This document shows positions 35,539-60,293 of a stretch of 64,000 nucleotides of DNA, in pieces. The notes below the pieces were generated by a model. That model was not told where the DNA came from. It saw only the letters and a program-made list of their open reading frames with translations, and made no database searches. Position 1 is the first letter of the stretch, and each line of letters begins with the position of its first letter. The translations under genes and the position numbers were made by a program. Where the stretch lies: the NCBI RefSeq assembly GCF_013410545.1, contig NZ_JACCFV010000001.1, positions 2,046,001 through 2,110,000 of the forward strand, read 5' to 3'. The stretch comes from Pseudoclavibacter chungangensis (GTDB taxonomy: Bacteria > Actinomycetota > Actinomycetes > Actinomycetales > Microbacteriaceae).

Positions 35539-35883
35539 GTGGCACGTAAAGTCGTTTATCAGCTCGTCGACGACATCGACCAGACCCCGCTCGACGAGGG
35601 TGAGGGCGAGACGGTTCGCTTCTCGCTCGACGGCAACGATTACGAGATCGATCTCTCGTCGGATCACGCGAAACTGCTCCGCGCCGGTCTCGAGAAGTAC
35701 GTCGACGCGGCCCGCGTCGTCTCGCGGACGAAGTCGGGCCGTTCGAGCTCGAACTCGCGCGTCCCGAAGCGCGACCTCAGCGCGATCCGCGCGTGGGCGT
35801 CGGCGAACGGCCACAAGGTCTCCGACCGCGGTCGGATCCCGAACGCCGTCGTCGAGGCGTACGACGCGGCGAACGGTCGCTGA
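35539..35883 (+). CDS. lsr2: Lsr2 nucleoid-associated protein
   Basis: A 114-residue H-NS-like protein of actinobacteria. The N-terminal dimerisation domain starts KVVYQLVDDIDQTPLDEGE. The C-terminal DNA-binding domain has AIRAWASANGHKVSDRGRIP, where the RGR hook enters the minor groove of AT-rich DNA. It silences AT-rich, often foreign, genes and organises the nucleoid. The start is GTG 35539 with AGAAGGAAG in front. Only one copy is in this window. Confidence 0.97.
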   Translation: MARKVVYQLVDDIDQTPLDEGEGETVRFSLDGNDYEIDLSSDHAKLLRAGLEKYVDAARVVSRTKSGRSSSNSRVPKRDLSAIRAWASANGHKVSDRGRIPNAVVEAYDAANGR

Positions 35884-52420: not shown

Positions 52421-53917
52421 TCAATCGCACTCGTCCCACGGCCAGGGCCACGAACCGCCGTCACAGTGACCGGGCGTCCCGGTCGGCGTCGGGTCCGGGC
52501 CGTCGGTCGGGGTCGGGTCGTCCGTCGACCCGGGGTCGTCGGTCGGGGTCGGGTCGTCCGTCGACCCGGGGTCGTCCGTCGGGTCCGGCGAACCGGGCGA
52601 AGTCCCGGGCGGCGTCGACGTGGACGGGCCGGGCAGCCCCGGCGAGTTCGAGCCGGGCGGCACGACGGGATTCCCCGACGGCGGCCGCCCCGGCGAGGTC
52701 GGCGGGGCCGCGGGGTCGTCGGCCGGTGGCGCGGTCGGGTCCGAGGAGTCCTCGGGGACTGCCGGCGACGACGACGGCGTGGTGGCCGGCGCCGTCGCGG
52801 GCGGTGCCGACGACCCGCTGCCGCCGCCCGATCCCCCGCTCGACGAGTCGTCCCCCTCGGCGCTCTCGGCCTGCTCGGACGATGCGTCCGCACCACCCGC
52901 GATCGCGGGGACCACCCAGAACGCCGCCGTCCCGGCCACGAGGATCGCCGCGACGGCGCCGACGGCCCAGACCGGCGCACCACCGATCACGGACATGATC
53001 GCGGCACCGACGGCGGCCGCGCCGCCGACGGCCGGCGCGCTGGACGGGGAGCCGCCCGTGCCGCCCGGCGACGCCGTGCTCGCCTGCGCGGCACCCGCAC
53101 CGGAGGCCGACGCGAGCCCCGCGCCGAGCGCCGCGGCCGCCGATGTCCCGACCGTCGCCGGGAAGATGACCGCCCGGAGCGCGGCACCGATGTCGCGGAG
53201 CGAGACGACCGCCGCGTCGCAGGACTCGCACGTCTCGAGGTGCTTCTCGACCCGGGTGCTCTCCTTGATCGTGAGCCCGTCACGCACGTACGCGCCGAGC
53301 TTCGACGAGATGCGCCGGCAGTCGAGTCGCACGGGCTCCGCGACGTGCTGCTGGAGGTAACGGCGCTTGAGGCCCTCGCGAGCGCGACCGAGCAGCGACG
53401 AAACGGCGTTCGGAGTGAGTTCGAGGAGCGGTGCGGCGTCGGCGACGTCCAACTGCTCGACCTCGACGAACCAGAGCGCGTTCTGCCAGCTGCTCGGCAG
53501 CCCCAGGAACGCACCACCGATCGTCGTCTGGTCGAGCGACTCCTCGATGACGGAATAGTCGTCGACGCTCGGGACGTCGAACGGTTCGAACGAGTCCACG
53601 TCGATCGTCGAGGACTCGCGTTTCGAGAGCGCCGCCGCAGCGTTCCGGACCGCGGCGTACAGGTAGGGCCGCATCGCGACGTGTGGTCCGGCGCCGGCCT
53701 TGAGCGCCGCGAACGTGCTCGTGAATCCCTCTTCGACGAGGTCCTCCGCCGCCGGGCGCCGACCTCGCGTCAGGGAGAGTGCCAACCTCGTGGCCGCGTC
53801 GTAGTGCCGCCGGTACAGTTCCGCGAACGCCTCGGCGTCGCCGGTCTCGCGCACCTCGCGGAGCAGCGCCGCCTCTTCCGACGCCAGCTCGTCCGCCGGC
53901 GACCATGCCGTACTCAT
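52421..53917 (-). CDS. ECF sigma factor fused to zinc-finger anti-sigma and membrane anchor
   Basis: A 498-residue fusion. Sigma region 2 (about 25-100, FAELYRRHYDAATRLAL and DLVEEGFTSTF) and region 4 (130-190, LLELTPNAVSSLLGRAREGL) come first. A ZAS-type zinc module then follows: Cys200, His226, Cys230 and Cys233. A flexible Ala/Gly region leads to one membrane helix (about 314-339), and a Pro/Ser/Thr/Asp-rich outer tail of about 155 residues ends in WPWPWDEC with two Cys. The tail contains a 12-residue repeat (DDPGSTDDPTPT) twice. Such fusions, known from ECF52/ECF53-like groups, probably stay at the membrane until proteolysed. No separate anti-sigma gene is present. The promoter motif is unknown. 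Confidence 0.88.
   Translation of the reverse strand: MSTAWSPADELASEEAALLREVRETGDAEAFAELYRRHYDAATRLALSLTRGRRPAAEDLVEEGFTSTFAALKAGAGPHVAMRPYLYAAVRNAAAALSKRESSTIDVDSFEPFDVPSVDDYSVIEESLDQTTIGGAFLGLPSSWQNALWFVEVEQLDVADAAPLLELTPNAVSSLLGRAREGLKRRYLQQHVAEPVRLDCRRISSKLGAYVRDGLTIKESTRVEKHLETCESCDAAVVSLRDIGAALRAVIFPATVGTSAAAALGAGLASASGAGAAQASTASPGGTGGSPSSAPAVGGAAAVGAAIMSVIGGAPVWAVGAVAAILVAGTAAFWVVPAIAGGADASSEQAESAEGDDSSSGGSGGGSGSSAPPATAPATTPSSSPAVPEDSSDPTAPPADDPAAPPTSPGRPPSGNPVVPPGSNSPGLPGPSTSTPPGTSPGSPDPTDDPGSTDDPTPTDDPGSTDDPTPTDGPDPTPTGTPGHCDGGSWPWPWDECD
52502..52573 (-). repeat. 36-bp tandem repeat in the sigma-factor fusion's outer tail
   Basis: Two near-identical 36-bp units encode the repeated DDPGSTDDPTPT in the extracellular tail. 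Such in-frame units can change number by slippage, so tail length may vary between strains. Confidence 0.75.
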
Positions 53918-54095: not shown

Positions 54096-55199
54096 TCAGA
54101 CCGGCGAATCGGTCGTCTTCGTCGACGCTCCCCGCCGGTTCGCGGCGTTGACCGCCGAGGTCCAGAGCCGCTCGGCCTCCCCGGGATTGCGTTCGAGCGC
54201 GGCGGCGATGAGGTCGCGCTGCGCCATGGTGCACTCCCCGAACGGCGCGAACAGCGCCTCGGTCGTCCGTTCGTCGGATTCACCGTCGAGATACTCGGCG
54301 GCGATCGACGCGAGCCGACCGCGGACGACGGCCTTCACCGCCGTCACCTCGCGCGGGCCGAGCGAGGCCGCGGCCGCATCCGGCAGGCCGAGCGCCTGGG
54401 CGAACAGGCTCCACGCGCGTCGACGGCGTTCGACGGCACCCATCTGCGCCTGCGTCAGGCGCTCCGCGAGCGCCTCCGCGGCCTCGTCACGCGAATCCGC
54501 GTCGCGCACCTGCTCGGGCGTCGCGTCGCCCACCCGATCCGTGGGATCCGCGAGCGCGGGTTCGACGGCGTCGTCCCCGCACCACCGCTCGTCGAACGAC
54601 ACGTGCGGCGTGAGCGAGATGCGATGGAAGTCCGGCGCCGGACGGTGCTCGGGGTCGTGCCACCCGGCGCGGACACCGTCCGCGATCACGTCCTCTTCGA
54701 CGCGCGAGGGCATGCGACCCTTGACCTGCAGGAACTCGTCCACGAGCCCGAGGTACACGCGACGTCCCGCGAAGGACTCGTAGCGGACGTCGGCGGGCAG
54801 GTGCCACCGGGACGCGAGCTTCGTCACGCGGTCGACGATGAGCTTCTCGTTCGGCGTCCGCCCCCCACGCTCGTTGTGGGCCTCGAGCAGTCCGAAATAG
54901 GCCTCCTGCACGATGTCGTCGACGTCGTCGCGGGTGAAGGCGCGTCGCCCGACGAGCCGCATCGCGCGACGTCGCGCGAAGTGCAGCAGGTTCTCGGGCG
55001 AGTCCTGGGCGGCCGGCCCCGCGTCGATGCGCGCGGGCGCGGCCTCGACCACCGGGTCGAGGTGGGCGATCGAATCGATCGCGGACGTCCGTCGGACGTC
55101 CGTCGGGTCGTCGGGACGCACGTGGTCGGCAGCGCCGGGCCGGGTGCCGATCGTGGGCTGGTCAAAACCGCTCATACAAGTGAGGAGTCGATCCCCCAT
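54096..55199 (-). CDS. Sigma-70 region 2-like protein of unknown function
   Basis: A 367-residue protein. The segment LLHFARRRAMRLVGRRAFTRDDVDDIVQEAYFGLLEA matches sigma-70 region 2, including the DDIVQEA core-binding helix. No region 4 (-35 recognition HTH) is clear, and the rest (EKLIVDRVTKLASRWH, VRYESFAGRRVYLGLVDEFL, and a C-terminal helical part) matches nothing I know. It may bind RNA polymerase without classic promoter recognition. The start is uncertain: ATG 55175 is an alternative and neither has a good ribosome site. It is the third gene of an operon that starts with the DnaQ-like pseudoenzyme. Confidence 0.7.
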   Translation of the reverse strand: MGDRLLTCMSGFDQPTIGTRPGAADHVRPDDPTDVRRTSAIDSIAHLDPVVEAAPARIDAGPAAQDSPENLLHFARRRAMRLVGRRAFTRDDVDDIVQEAYFGLLEAHNERGGRTPNEKLIVDRVTKLASRWHLPADVRYESFAGRRVYLGLVDEFLQVKGRMPSRVEEDVIADGVRAGWHDPEHRPAPDFHRISLTPHVSFDERWCGDDAVEPALADPTDRVGDATPEQVRDADSRDEAAEALAERLTQAQMGAVERRRRAWSLFAQALGLPDAAAASLGPREVTAVKAVVRGRLASIAAEYLDGESDERTTEALFAPFGECTMAQRDLIAAALERNPGEAERLWTSAVNAANRRGASTKTTDSPV

Positions 55200-55229: not shown

Positions 55230-55697
55230 CTAACTCTCAGGAAACTCGACCGGCACGCTCCAGCGCTCGACCGAGGGAACCTCGTCCCACGGGATCCGCC
55301 ACGCGCGCGGTGGCGCTTCGGTGATGCCCTGGCAACCGGTCGTGAGCCGACAGGCGACCGGTACCTCACCCGCAACGATGTCGTAGGCGCCGCAGAGGGG
55401 ACAGCGCCGCAGATTCGCCTCCGCGCGCGTGGGCAGCCTCCGCAGGAGACGGAGGTTCCGGTCGATGATCTCGACCTGCCGCCCCGTGAGTCGATGGCGC
55501 GCGGCGAACTGCAGCGCTAGATCGTCGCCCGACTCGAGGACGTCGAGCAGTTCACCGAACGTGGACGTGCCGCTCGACTCGAGCAATCCCTGCACGACCG
55601 CGCCGATGGCGACGAGCGTGTCCCCCTCGGGCGTGAGGATGCCCATGACGGTGGCACCTTCGCCGTGCTGCCGGTGACGCATCGTGGCGGTGTTCAT
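55230..55697 (-). CDS. Zinc-ribbon-like hypothetical protein
   Basis: A 155-residue protein with a helical N-terminal half (FGELLDVLESGDDLALQFA, TGRQVEIIDRNLRLLRRLPT) and a C-terminal zinc-ribbon-like segment with CPLC then, 17 residues later, CRLTTGC. AGGAGG lies 7 nt before the ATG, and the start overlaps the upstream DnaQ-like stop by 4 bp. It has a nucleic-acid-binding look; no family is recognised. Confidence 0.75.
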   Translation of the reverse strand: MNTATMRHRQHGEGATVMGILTPEGDTLVAIGAVVQGLLESSGTSTFGELLDVLESGDDLALQFAARHRLTGRQVEIIDRNLRLLRRLPTRAEANLRRCPLCGAYDIVAGEVPVACRLTTGCQGITEAPPRAWRIPWDEVPSVERWSVPVEFPES

Positions 55698-56422
55698 CTC
55701 GAGGCCTCCTCGCGCGTCGGGAGCACCGGCCACGACGCCGCGGCGCGGGCATCGGAACGGGCGCCGAGTTCCCACTCGGCCGTCGTTCGGTGGATGTCGA
55801 GCAGCGACCCGGTGCCGTGCCCGATCTCGCCCGCGAAGCGATCGAGCAGCGTCCAGGCGAGGAGGCCCGCGACGACGACACCGAACAGTGGCCCGTGCGC
55901 GTTCGCCCGATCGACGGGGATGCCGTGGCTGCTCGCGGTCTCCACGAGCCGGCGGGAGCCGCTGCGGAAGGGGTCGACGGCCTTGTCGATCGCGAACGGG
56001 TCGATCACCGGCGCGGGTGTCGCCGGGTGCACCGCATGTCGCCGCGCCTCGCGGTCGATCACCGTGAACGGGCGCGCCGCGTGGAAGGCCACGACGGGAA
56101 GTCCTGCATCGAAGCGCTCGCGGAGCGCCTCCACGATCTGCACGATCGCGTCCCCACCGTCGTCGAGCCGTTCGTCAGGCCGCTCGCCACCGAGTCGGAC
56201 GACGTTGGACTCGGCGGCGCCGATCGGCTCGCCCGGCTCGACCCGCCAGCGACGGACCGCGTGCACCCGCCCGTCGCGTCCGACATCGGCGAGCACCGCC
56301 GATTCGATGCGTCCCTGCTCGACGTCGAGCGCGGACGACTTGACGTCGAGCACGGTGAGCGAATGCAGGTCGCTCAGCGTGGGGACCCCGCGTCCTCGCG
56401 GCGGAAACGTCGTGACGTTCAC
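55694..56422 (-). CDS. DnaQ-fold exonuclease homologue with lost catalytic acids
   Basis: A 242-residue protein that aligns along actinobacterial DNA polymerase III epsilon-like exonucleases (about 230-250 residues). The usual DTETTG is DVKSSA (Asp kept, Glu to Lys), AAFDLTLLDRE is AARPFTVIDRE (Asp to Pro), and HxAxxD is HGPLFG (Asp to Gly). The fold markers VIDPFAIDKAVDPFRSGSRR and LLDIHRTTAEW are retained. Three of four metal-binding acids are gone, so it should not cut DNA and may act as a binding or scaffold protein. GTG 56422 has AGGAG 7 nt upstream. It is the first gene of a three-gene operon. Confidence 0.82.
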   Translation of the reverse strand: MNVTTFPPRGRGVPTLSDLHSLTVLDVKSSALDVEQGRIESAVLADVGRDGRVHAVRRWRVEPGEPIGAAESNVVRLGGERPDERLDDGGDAIVQIVEALRERFDAGLPVVAFHAARPFTVIDREARRHAVHPATPAPVIDPFAIDKAVDPFRSGSRRLVETASSHGIPVDRANAHGPLFGVVVAGLLAWTLLDRFAGEIGHGTGSLLDIHRTTAEWELGARSDARAAASWPVLPTREEASR

Positions 56423-56471
56423 GGACCACTCCTCTTCGTTCCGGCAGATCGCCCCTCGCGTCGGGCGACTC

Positions 56472-56511
56472 GTCACCACCGCCCATGCCCGGATCGGACC
56501 GAACCTGCGCA
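56472..56511. repeat. 40-bp element, copy 1 (upstream of DnaQ-like operon)
   Basis: It reads GTCACCAC-N4-CATG-N18-TGCGCA on the plus strand. It aligns without gaps to two more copies; the fixed ends and CATG are identical, and the middle keeps CGGA and GAA. It lies 50 bp before the GTG start of the DnaQ-like gene, a promoter or operator position. Confidence 0.7.
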
Positions 56512-56583
56512 AACGGACGAACACCGACGCGTCGTCGTTCCGCCCACGCGTCCGGCGGTCCCCGCGGTCGCGGGAGGGTGCGC

Positions 56584-56616
56584 GGCCGCCGCGCCGAAGA
56601 GCTCGGCGCGGCGGCC
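56584..56616. terminator. Strong hairpin between element copies 1 and 2
   Basis: A perfect 14-bp GC-only-like stem (GGCCGCCGCGCCGA and its complement) with an AGAGC loop. Either strand could use it; it fits the end of a short leftward transcript from copy 2. No U tract. Confidence 0.6.
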
Positions 56617-56725
56617 CGACCATCGTGCGCACCGCCCGGGGGAAGCGGGGCACGACTGGTCGGCCCCGCGTGGAGACCTGCGGGGGGCGACCGGGTGCCG
56701 TGTCACTGGGGGTTCGCGACGACCC

Positions 56726-56765
56726 GTCACCACTCCCCATGGACGGACGGCGAAGAAGTTGCGCA
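56726..56765. repeat. 40-bp element, copy 2
   Basis: Same architecture as copies 1 and 3. Over the 29 bases starting at CATG it matches copy 3 at 26. On the minus strand it is followed by a C-rich stretch of about 110 nt and then the hairpin at 56584-56616. Confidence 0.75.
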
Positions 56766-56986
56766 CCGACCGGCGCGGCCCCGCGACCGCGGCGTTCCGG
56801 CGGACGACGCGGGTTCGTGCGTGCCGACCGAGGACGAGGACGGTGTATGCGCTCCGTCGGCGATCGGGAGGGGCGGGGCACCGGGGCGTCGAGCGCGTCG
56901 CATGTCGCGTCACGGAGCGCCGCCGTGCACCGGGGGGAGGTCCGGCGGCCCATCCGCATCGCGCCCGTCGGCGATCCGGCGGAGGG

Positions 56987-57090
56987 ACCGGTATCGCGCG
57001 GGGGGTCGCGATACCGGTTCAACTCGTCCGCATCGACGATCGCGCCGACGGTTCCGACCGTTCGCCTCCGGGGGGAAGAGACGTTCTCCG
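56987..57090 (-). ncRNA. Candidate 6C-type small RNA
   Basis: Read leftward, it has two stem-loops each with six C in the loop: CGTCTCT / GGAGGCG around TCCCCCC (about 57066-57086), and a perfect 12-bp stem ACCGGTATCGCG / CGCGATACCGGT around ACCCCCCG (56987-57018). Two hairpins with runs of at least six C in their loops define the 6C RNA of actinobacteria. The 40-bp element copy 3 lies immediately upstream. It is called from structure alone; the exact ends are unknown and the genomic neighbours differ from the mycobacterial locus. Confidence 0.5.
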
Positions 57091-57130
57091 GTCACCACCA
57101 CTCATGCACGGACGTCGAAGAACTTGCGCA
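57091..57130. repeat. 40-bp element, copy 3 (upstream of 6C-like RNA)
   Basis: Ungapped match to the other copies. Relative to leftward transcription it directly precedes the 6C-like RNA and so may be its promoter or a regulator site. It is 217 bp from the thiolase start on the other side. Confidence 0.75.
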
Positions 57131-57347
57131 CACGATGTCGGTCGGATCGTTCGAGCGGTCGGAATCGGCGTCGGACGGTGCGCCGGTCGGGATCCGCACC
57201 CGGGCGGCCGGCGAGCGCCCGGGCCGCGTCACGGTGCCCTCGAGGCCGACCGGACCCCGCCGGTCCACGATGCGCGAGCTACACTGCTCGGCACCGACGA
57301 GCATCGCCGCCCCGGCCGGTTCGTCGCCGGACGAAGGAGACGACGAG

Positions 57348-58532
57348 ATGACGAACGCGCTCATCGCGGGCGTCGGCACGGTGCCGTTCCGCACGCCGCG
57401 CACGAGCGATCCGTACGACGTCATGGCCGAAGGTGCGGTCCGCGCGGCGCTCGCGGATGCCGGCGTCGACCTCGCCGACGTCCAGCAGAGCTATGTCGGC
57501 TACGTCTACGGCGATTCGACATCCGGGCAGCGCGCCCTGTATCGCGTGGGCCGGACGGGTGCCCCGATCATCAACGTCGACAACAACTGCGCCACGGGAT
57601 CGACGGCCCTGTGGCTCGCACGACAGGCGATCGAGAGCGGCGACGCGGACTGCGTGCTCGCCCTCGGCTTCGAGCAGATGCAGCGCGGTGCACTCGTCGA
57701 GCACTGGGCGGACCGCCCCGGGCCGCTCGCCGATTTCGTCGCCCGTGCGGACGACGAGTTCGGACCGGACGACGTTCCCATGGCCGTGAAACTGTTCGGC
57801 GGTGCGGGCCGCGAGTACCAGGAGCGGCACGGCACCGACGACCGCACGTTCGCCGCGATCACCGTCAAGTCACGACGTCACGCGGCCGCGAACCCCATCG
57901 CCGTGTTCCGCGAACCCGTGACGGTGGAGGAGGTCCTCGCGTCGGGTGAGGTGTTCGCACCGCTCACGCGCCTGCAGTGCTGTCCGCCGACGTGCGGGGC
58001 GGCAGCGGCGATCCTCGTCTCCCCCGCGTTCGCCCGCTCGCGGGGGCTCGATGCCGGCGTGCGGATCGTCGCGCAGGCGATGGCGACCGATCGGGACTCG
58101 ACGTTCGAGGGCGATCTCGCGCAACTCGTGGGTGCCGACCTCACGGCCGACGCGGCCGCGCAGGTCGCCGAGGCCTCGGGTGTCGACCTCGCCGAGGTGC
58201 CCGTCGTCGAATTGCACGACTGCTTCACCACGAACGAACTCCTGAGCTACGAGGCACTCGGGCTCACCCCGCCGGGGACCGCCGAGCGCTTCGTGCTCGA
58301 CGGCGAGAACACGTACGGCGGCCGCGTCGTCACGAACCCGTCCGGCGGGCTCCTCTCCAAGGGGCACCCGCTCGGCGCGACGGGTCTGGCCCAGTGCGCC
58401 GAGCTCGTCCAGCAGCTGCGCGGTGAAGCGGGCGAGCGCCAGGTCGAGGGCGCGACGCTCGCGCTGCAACACAACATCGGGCTGGGCGGCGCCGCAGTCG
58501 TGACCCTCTACGAGCGATCCCCCACCCCGTGA
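57348..58532 (+). CDS. SCP-x/lipid-transfer-type thiolase
   Basis: A 394-residue thiolase of the SCP-x/sterol-carrier type. The acyl-accepting Cys is in DNNCATGSTAL, the His in VELHDCFTTNELL, and the C-terminal motif is GGLLSKGHPLGATGLAQ. It would cleave 3-oxoacyl-CoA of fatty acid or sterol-like side chains; non-catalytic relatives also exist. GAAGGAG precedes the ATG. No beta-oxidation partners are adjacent. Confidence 0.92.
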   Translation: MTNALIAGVGTVPFRTPRTSDPYDVMAEGAVRAALADAGVDLADVQQSYVGYVYGDSTSGQRALYRVGRTGAPIINVDNNCATGSTALWLARQAIESGDADCVLALGFEQMQRGALVEHWADRPGPLADFVARADDEFGPDDVPMAVKLFGGAGREYQERHGTDDRTFAAITVKSRRHAAANPIAVFREPVTVEEVLASGEVFAPLTRLQCCPPTCGAAAAILVSPAFARSRGLDAGVRIVAQAMATDRDSTFEGDLAQLVGADLTADAAAQVAEASGVDLAEVPVVELHDCFTTNELLSYEALGLTPPGTAERFVLDGENTYGGRVVTNPSGGLLSKGHPLGATGLAQCAELVQQLRGEAGERQVEGATLALQHNIGLGGAAVVTLYERSPTP

Positions 58533-58596: not shown

Positions 58597-58653
58597 GTTC
58601 CGGGCGAAATCTGGGGTTCCGGGTGCCCCGGAACCCCAGATTTCGCCCGGAAC
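58597..58653. terminator. 27-bp perfect inverted repeat between thiolase and ramB
   Basis: Two 27-base arms (start GTTCCGGGCGAAATCTGGGG) are exact complements separated by a 3-base TGC turn. It stands between convergent stops and can terminate both transcripts. It is much longer than other hairpins here. Confidence 0.85.
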
Positions 58654-58688: not shown

Positions 58689-60158
58689 TCAGGGGTGGGG
58701 GGTCGCGTGGCGGTCGAGGAAGTCGTAGACCTCGACCTTGTCGACGCCCGTCGTCGAGCCGTCGGGCATCGCCGCGAGCAGTGACGCGTTGAGGCGCGCG
58801 CTCGGCCACGCCTTGCCCTCCCAGTACGCGGTCGACTTCCCGGACGGCTCGCGGCAGCACGACGGATCGGGGCAGCGCGAGGGCAGCCGGCGCTTCGTGT
58901 CGCGCCCGCGGAACCACTTCGCCTCCGCGAAGTTCGTGCCGACGCTCACCGAGAAGTCACCGCTCGTCGACGACTCGATGCGTGACGTGCACCAGAACGT
59001 GCCCGACGGCTTGTCCGTGTACTGGTGGTACGGGCTCAGACGGTCCTCGACCTCGAACACCTGCCGCGCACTCCACCACCGGCACACCTGCTGCCCCTCG
59101 ACCGCACCGAGCACGTCGGTCGGGAACTGCACCTCGTCGTTCGCGTAGGCCTTCGAGATCGCGCCGCTCGCGTGCACCTTCACGAAGTGCACGGGGATGC
59201 CGAGGTGCCGCGTCGCGAGGTTCGTGAACCGGTGGGCCGCCGTCTCGTAGCTCACGGCGAAGTGATCGCGCAGGTCCTCGACGGAGAGCTCCCGCGCGGC
59301 CTTCGCCTCCGTCAGGTACTCGAGTGCGCTCGCCTGCGGGACGAGCAGCGCGCCCGCGAGGTAGTTCGTCTCCACGCGCTGCCGGAGCAGATCGCCGAAG
59401 TCGTGCGGCTCCGGACTGTCGAGCACGTGCGCGGCGAGTGCCTGCAGGAGCGCCGAGCGCGCATCGGTGCCGGGCTGGCGGATCGGGAGGTAGATGCGGT
59501 GGTTGCGGTGATCGGCGATGCTGCGCGTCGTCGCGGGCAGATCCCCCACGTAGTGGAGCGTGAAGCCGAGGTGCGCGGCGAGCTCGGAGGTCGCGCGCTG
59601 CGAGAGCGGACCGCCGCGGTGACCGATCGCGGCGAGGAGCTCGGCGGCGGCGTGCTCGAGATCCTCGTAGTAGTTGTCGCGGGCGCGCTGCTCCGCACGC
59701 AGCTCGGCGTTCGCGCGCCGGGCCTGCTCGGGTGTCGCGGCGCGCTGTTCGTGCAACCGCTCGAGCTCACCGTGCAGCGTGAGGATCGTCTCGATCGCCG
59801 CGTCGCTCAGGCTCTTGCGAACGGGGAGCGCGGGGAGGTCGAGGGAACTGTAGAGCGGGCTGCGCTGCGCGCGCTCGAGCTCGATCTCGAGCTCGTCGCG
59901 GCGCGAGAGCGCCTCGGGCTCGAGGAGCGCGTCGAGGGTCGTGTCGAGCGCGCGGGCGAGCCGCTGCAACTCGGCGAGCTTGAGCTCGCGCTTCCCGTTC
60001 TCGATGACGGAGACCTGCGAGGCGGCACGTCCGATCGCGTCGCCGAGTTCGCCGACGGTCATCCCGCGGTCGACCCGGAGCCGACGCACGCGTCGTCCGA
60101 TGGTGAGTGAATCGAGCACGTCCTCATCGTCACCCGCGAGGGTCCGTCGTCCTGCCAT
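58689..60158 (-). CDS. ramB: RamB-like regulator of acetate metabolism/glyoxylate shunt
   Basis: A 489-residue protein: XRE HTH (about 25-85, [32 protein letters not shown]), a long helical spacer, an ImmA/IrrE-like region ([18 protein letters not shown]) and the DUF2083 C-terminal cysteine-containing domain (CPDPSCCRE). This order is that of RamB/ScfR-type short-chain fatty acid regulators. RamB of Corynebacterium glutamicum represses aceA and aceB, and here it is divergent from them across 135 bp. ATG 60158 was chosen over an upstream ATG at 60176. Confidence 0.93.
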
Positions 60159-60195
60159 GCCACGAGCCTGCCACACCCGATCATTCTGCGGATCA

Positions 60196-60233
60196 GAAAA
60201 ACGTGCATATTTCTATCCACTTTCTTGCGAAGA
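60196..60233. promoter_or_regulatory. Candidate RamB sites in ramB-aceA gap
   Basis: The AT-rich part of the divergent gap holds ACTTTCTTGCGAAGA (60219-60233) and AAAAACGTGCATATTTC, both distantly like the published RamB box with TTTGCAAA. The match is loose. Confidence 0.3.
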
Positions 60234-60293
60234 ACCGGTCCGATTCGGCGCATGCTCATTGCAGGCCACGTGAAAGACGCGAAGGAGCAGCAC

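Follow-up and report, generated by a model that had tools for sequence, protein, structure and literature searches.

Across a 925-bp interval with divergent genes on either side, three 40-bp elements (E1 to E3) were found to alternate with a pair of perfect hairpins (T1 and T2; order E1 T1 E2 T2 E3). The elements are probably functional DNA sites. We tentatively read them as promoter-operator sites acting leftward, E1 for the neighbouring operon and E2 and E3 for short RNAs. The interval belongs to a window of 64,000 nucleotides of Pseudoclavibacter chungangensis (contig NZ_JACCFV010000001.1, positions 2,046,001 to 2,110,000), and coordinates below are those of the window. The interval contains the following features:

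56472-56511, minus strand (inferred orientation): element E1; read leftward, the GTG start of the DnaQ-like gene lies 49 bp downstream
56584-56616, no strand assigned: perfect hairpin T1 with 14-bp arms and a 5-nt loop, lacking a T run; a probable terminator
56726-56765, minus strand (inferred orientation): element E2; read leftward, followed after 109 bp by hairpin T1
56987-57018, no strand assigned: perfect hairpin T2 with 12-bp arms and an 8-nt loop, lacking a T run; a probable terminator
57091-57130, minus strand (inferred orientation): element E3; read leftward, followed after 72 bp by hairpin T2
57280-57285, plus strand: TACACT, a possible thiolase -10; no other TANNNT hexamer occurs in the interval on either strand

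The flanking gene starts used were 56422 (DnaQ-like, leftward) and 57348 (thiolase, rightward). The codon model favoured starts further inside the interval (56524 and 57135); start 56422 was retained because the homologue P0002 begins at the same place.

In the alignment all three elements were written on the plus strand, without gaps, where they carry the pattern GTCACCAC-N4-CATG-N18-TGCGCA. The original prediction of three ungapped copies sharing these blocks at fixed spacing was confirmed by both coordinates and alignment. A total of 26 of the 40 columns are invariant, arranged in blocks with fixed spacing, and read as minus strand TGCGCA-N2-TTC-N7-TCCG-N2-CATG-N1-G-N2-GTGGTGAC. The block centres lie 10 and 23 bp apart, and thus roughly on one helix face. 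Comparing the copies pairwise over 40 columns, 28 identities were found for E1/E2, 34 for E2/E3 and 29 for E1/E3. When the interval was shuffled 100 times, the best 40-bp pair had on average 26.2 and at most 32 identities, so that a pair alone is only moderately above chance. It is the triple, not any pair, that stands out. Outside the element edges 1-11 matches per 20 bp were counted in register, no better than background. As the in-register similarity ends at the 40-bp edges, selection on the site accounts for the copies better than would a larger unit that was recently duplicated, and an in-register duplication of this kind was not seen beyond 40 bp. For other segments of the interval, 5 of 30 comparisons were equalled by at most 10 of 200 simple shuffles, indicating some further weak repetition.

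The search pattern GTCACCAC-N4-CATG-N18-TGCGCA had been defined on E1 to E3 themselves. Allowing up to 3 mismatches, it was found at 3 places in the window, all exact (E1 to E3), compared to a mean of 0.10 in window shuffles, where 3 places were reached in 0 of 100. A search of the whole 3.99-Mb genome, proposed along with the original prediction, returned exact matches only at E1 to E3. With up to 3 mismatches it gave 9 places, the 3 exact ones and 6 with 2-3 mismatches, and the reversed control pattern gave 2. A sequence profile scored E1 to E3 at E 2.2e-9 to 2.9e-8. The best match in the rest of the genome was at E 0.31 (150 of 511 first-look candidates scored), and the next match in the window alone, unfiltered, at E 0.031 (35769-35799). 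No further convincing copy was found in the 3.99-Mb genome. Among 136 intergenic stretches (130 bp to 4 kb; 464-kb sample), a triple of at least 26 columns occurred in 2 only, namely in this interval (26) and in a 46-bp tandem array elsewhere (28), the next best value being 19. The gap of this tandem array (L102, 15519-15917) also has a long perfect hairpin. When coding DNA was taken in as well, 26 columns were reached in 14 of 487 tiles (925 bp each), the top six of them in one repetitive stretch. The three-copy feature is real and unusual.

That the elements alternate with perfect hairpins, as had been claimed, was borne out, with 14/14 and 12/12 arm positions paired; with the flanking starts used, the stretch is also gene-free. 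Using 500 shuffles of the interval, two such perfect hairpins were obtained in 0 and one in 7. A T-run terminator was found nowhere in the interval (0 sites), and T1 and T2 have the perfect GC-rich stem (14/14 and 12/12 pairs) and short loop of a U-less intrinsic terminator. For Streptomyces clavuligerus, the excerpt of PMC8269248 describes stem-loop transcript ends without a U tract, for which intrinsic or Rho-dependent termination is possible. Perfect GC-rich hairpins without T run were found at many gene ends of the present genome. The window contains 7 perfect hairpins with arms of at least 11, four near gene ends, T1 and T2, and one in a gene which by eye resembles a histidine kinase. Analyzing 464 kb (a 400-kb sample of this genome plus the window), 46 perfect hairpins with arms of at least 12 were identified, 2 of them called inside genes and 39 assignable to a gap (at least 10 bp) with a called gene on either side. 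Gap classes are approximate because genes were called by a simple codon model, and repeated hairpin families stayed in the counts: the 46 convergent gaps contained 15 hairpins, the two sets of tandem gaps (102 and 79) 10 and 11, respectively, and the 55 divergent gaps 3. Most hairpins of this survey sit at the ends of genes. Per kb of gap this amounts to 1.84 for convergent, 0.38 and 0.66 for tandem and 0.16 for divergent gaps. The only 3 hairpins of divergent gaps were T1, T2 and a member of a repeated hairpin family. Two such families of long perfect intergenic hairpins, with the cores GGGGTTCCGGG and GCCGGGTTGTTGCTACCGGGCCC, were seen in the genome (L086, L088, L095, L096, L097, L102; window 58597-58653), and a relative of the GGGGTTCCGGG family sits between the thiolase and RamB-like genes.

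Neither T1 nor T2 stands at the end of a called gene. Both are placed like the terminators of this genome, which makes short untranslated transcripts likely. We are rather confident that T1 and T2 are transcription terminators, and most likely they end short transcripts that begin inside the interval. The symmetry of the hairpins holds no information on direction. Between element and hairpin, folding is hardly better than in shuffled sequence, with z values of -1.72 (leftward strand) and -2.22 (other strand) for E2-T1 and of -0.19 and +0.95, respectively, for E3-T2.

Read leftward, the geometry agrees with the original prediction: E3 and E2 each come before a hairpin, and E1 before the DnaQ-like gene. 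At 72 and 109 bp from the hairpins and 49 bp from the operon, all elements stand at a suitable distance, which fits promoter-operator sites served by one factor. Accordingly placed, E1 to E3 would be protein-binding DNA sites, most likely promoter-operators acting leftward. E1 would control the operon for the DnaQ-like, Zn-ribbon-like and sigma-like proteins, E2 would start a non-coding RNA of ~150 nt ending at T1, and E3 one of ~110 nt ending at T2. A single factor may act on all three elements; the adjacent ECF-type protein or one of the operon's own products is a possible candidate. The position of the conserved GTGGTGAC would be around the start site, the arrangement of an operator that overlaps a promoter. 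Protein binding, the promoter as opposed to an operator-only role, the leftward direction and the factor are all what we infer. For the direction, leftward appears somewhat the better choice; for promoters versus operators only, the scales are about level.

The promoter step is the weak point, with the consensus fit absent and GTGGTGAC conserved at the start site. Conservation of 8/8 bases around a transcription start site is unusual. A promoter-like spacing had been proposed for the elements, with the remark that CATG is not a normal -10; the distance of 18 bp from TGCGCA to CATG on the minus strand stood. Hexamers of the sigma-70-type -35/-10 kind were not found at the elements, and to our knowledge TGCGCA-N18-CATG fits no known promoter consensus, ECF consensus included. 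Scanning the interval for sigma-70-type promoters gave 0 sites compared to 0.1 in shuffles, a comparison of low power. TANNNT was not found on the minus strand of the whole interval, which means little because such a hexamer was also missing within 150 bp of 18 out of 30 gene starts examined in the window. TACACT, an actinobacterial-type -10 hexamer, is oriented right for the thiolase and lies 68 bp upstream of it. In the literature we found nothing on Microbacteriaceae start sites or on repeated promoters with small RNAs, and absence from print is not claimed.

Leader peptides and a structured RNA were considered and rejected. The rightward peptides MPGSDRTCA, MDGRRRSCA and MHGRRRTCA look conserved, but their frames lack a nearby stop; leftward, the frames differ between the copies and the E3 frame soon stops. 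The window gave no Rfam match at gathering score (7 matches, all below gathering scores), and the fold was poorly kept across the copies: in the three sequences, 8/14 predicted pairs of the minus-strand fold were broken in at least one copy, and 2/10 of the plus-strand fold, the energy of which is only -2.5.

The genes on both sides of the interval are:

52421-53917, minus strand: ECF-type sigma region 2 fused to zf-HC2, 178 bp past the operon; may be a unit of its own
54096-55175, open to 55199, minus strand: weakly sigma-like protein, 359 aa from an inner start
55230-55697, minus strand: Zn-ribbon-like protein, 155 aa, Cys pattern by eye; overlaps the end of the DnaQ-like gene
55694-56422, minus strand: DnaQ-like protein, 242 aa; first gene of the leftward operon
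57348-58532, plus strand: thiolase / lipid-transfer protein, PRK08256 family; right-hand divergent neighbour

The DnaQ-like protein matched NCBIfam PRK07942.1 at E 3.3e-28 with 99 bits, below the cut-off of 186. In what we take to be the catalytic positions of a DEDDh exonuclease (DxE, Asp, His, last Asp), this protein (P0001) and the two homologues nearest to it (P0002, P0003) have DVK for DxE, Pro/Gln for the second Asp and Gly for the last Asp. The first catalytic Asp is retained in P0001, P0002 and P0003, the His in P0001 and P0002. With several catalytic residues replaced, the protein does not have the residues of an active DnaQ-type (DEDDh) exonuclease and, by its sequence, is probably a kept but inactive one. 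The Zn-ribbon-like protein had no Pfam match. The sigma-like protein matched Pfam Sigma70_r2 at E 0.01, below the cut-off, and a search with it found 3 proteins, itself included. Its structure model is of low confidence (mean pLDDT 53), and no solved relative was found. The ECF-type/zf-HC2 fusion protein has 498 aa and a long Pro/Ser/Thr-rich tail. For the thiolase there was no match at E 1e-60 in 9 other genomes of the genus.

Homologues of the operon proteins were found in pairs on metagenome contigs of equal size, from which the same contig was deduced: DnaQ-like and Zn-like (P0002/P0041; 1453), Zn-like and sigma-like (P0042/P0039; 3204) and DnaQ-like and sigma-like (P0003/P0038; 6068). These three pairs on matching contigs point to conservation of the operon. 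Three megaplasmids of Arthrobacter/Pseudarthrobacter encode weak relatives of both the Zn-like and the sigma-like protein, ~2-2.6 kb from each other, and in the two regions viewed (L082, L104) the Zn-like gene comes after a DEAD/DEAH or SNF2-related helicase gene. A literature search yielded nothing on inactive DnaQ with sigma factors and nothing relevant on the megaplasmid clusters, from which no absence is claimed.

Conservation of the three copies in related genomes, expected under the original prediction, was not found in a test of low power. With up to 3 mismatches, the 25-base pattern was present in 0/198 other family genomes (199 including its own) and in 0/395 other genomes of an order sample overlapping the family (396 including its own). 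Using the profile under strict filters (16 candidates scored per genome where listed), nothing above chance was found in 397 other family genomes. An E of at most 0.1 was reached in 10 of 398 family genomes, its own included, and the best other E of 0.0117 is not above chance because so many genomes were scanned. Conservation is hardly tested by these numbers, because the sigma-like gene of the operon was found in only 6 of the 397 other family genomes, all at 23-34% identity. Upstream of the distant sigma-like relatives the element was not found. Two of these upstream stretches were checked for repeats: L033 had none, and L034 had other two-copy repeats of 24-51 nt with 71-88% identity. In a DNA search of the interval in 40 genomes, its own included, the top two hits elsewhere were 45 bp (E 2.4e-7) and 64 bp long (E 7.5e-7); both lie under long open frames and cover no whole element. 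Among plasmids the DNA search gave no match. Viral sequences had 0 exact matches to the 25-base pattern and 1 to an 18-base pattern, in a 744-aa ORF of a viral contig, which was taken as chance. No relatives were found in genome contigs and viral contigs. The proposal of co-regulated short transcripts feeding into the operon is partly supported: geometry and terminator-like hairpins make short transcripts likely, whereas conservation did not come in support.

Other readings account for part of these data. The elements might be operators only, which bind a repressor or activator of one or both divergent genes, the hairpins serving as insulators between the two sides or ending transcripts from other, unrecognised promoters. 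Three sites between divergent genes, with three fixed blocks roughly on one helix face, would suit such a role, and the -10-like TACACT may serve the thiolase. However, two terminators between divergent genes suggest starts inside the interval, where no other start signal is visible, and we consider operators only to be possible, on the unlikely side. The alternation with the hairpins would be explained equally well by a rightward array, in which E1 leads to T1, E2 to T2 and E3 to the thiolase with spacings of 72, 221 and 217 bp. Yet the thiolase has its own -10-like hexamer at 68 bp, far closer than E3, and by eye no rightward -35/-10 pair at promoter spacing was present in all three copies; a rightward array is improbable. 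There is also a slim chance that the elements have no function and arose by decay from a small element of the mobile or repeated kind, as copies were found in one genome and one stretch only. Against decay speak the missing in-register similarity outside the 40 bp and the conserved blocks, which kept constant spacing while the bases between them diverged.

A regulator is encoded close by, a RamB/PrpR-like protein (58689-60158) with isocitrate lyase and malate synthase alongside, and the elements could be its sites, with the thiolase in its regulon. E1 to E3 contain TTTGCGCA, GTTGCGCA and CTTGCGCA, which match 7, 6 and 6 of 8 positions of TTTGC(A/G)AA, as this motif appears in the excerpt of PMC6765138; TTTGCGCA, of E1 on the minus strand, runs past the element edge. 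However, the best score of 7/8 was equalled in 15 of 100 interval shuffles and 6/8 in 88 of 100, and the 13-bp RamB motif AA/GAACTTTGCAAA, from the excerpt of PMC4448153, reached 9/13 in the interval and also in 13 of 100 shuffles. These borrowed motifs do not discriminate, because the ramB/isocitrate lyase gap scored 9/13 and 7/8 and thus no better than the interval. Of 30 loci (L041-L070, drawn from the 131 of 150 genomes with a match), 26 have the sequence TTCT-N6..10-AGAA upstream of this regulator, compared to a shuffle mean of 0.3 and largest value of 3, the sequence having been chosen from the same loci. It is absent from the interval, where about none is expected by chance. As a motif of the region upstream of the RamB-like gene (60159-60293 in the window), it is a possible operator of that regulator. 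The link of the elements to the RamB/PrpR-like regulator is unsupported, and we give it a small chance.

The reading as leftward promoter-operator sites can be extended to an autoregulated operon of an undescribed sigma-like protein with megaplasmid relatives, with its private promoter in three copies, one serving the operon itself and two serving short terminated RNAs that act as decoy promoters or operon regulators. We regard this extension as a long shot. If the elements are promoters, a single mapping experiment would reveal a new promoter class with a likely factor, and two short RNAs beside an operon with a DnaQ-like protein lacking several catalytic residues. An operator-only role would make them a local regulatory array of the ordinary kind. 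The hairpin survey further suggests that, in GC-rich genomes, unannotated transcripts can be flagged by perfect U-less hairpins in divergent gaps.

Compared to known systems, T1 and T2 resemble the U-less stem-loop ends of high-GC actinobacteria, as described in the excerpt of PMC8269248, in being perfect, GC-rich and without T run; they differ in lying between divergent genes, with no called gene ending at them. With RamB/PrpR boxes the elements share a RamB/PrpR-like gene nearby and TGCGCA (TTGCGCA in two copies), but they differ by their length of 40 bp with further fixed blocks. ECF sigma factor operons can have autoregulated promoters. Unlike these, the elements have conserved bases extending past the -10 and are without other copies in the genome; like them, they have a sigma-type gene near, repeated upstream sites and blocks at about -35/-10 spacing.
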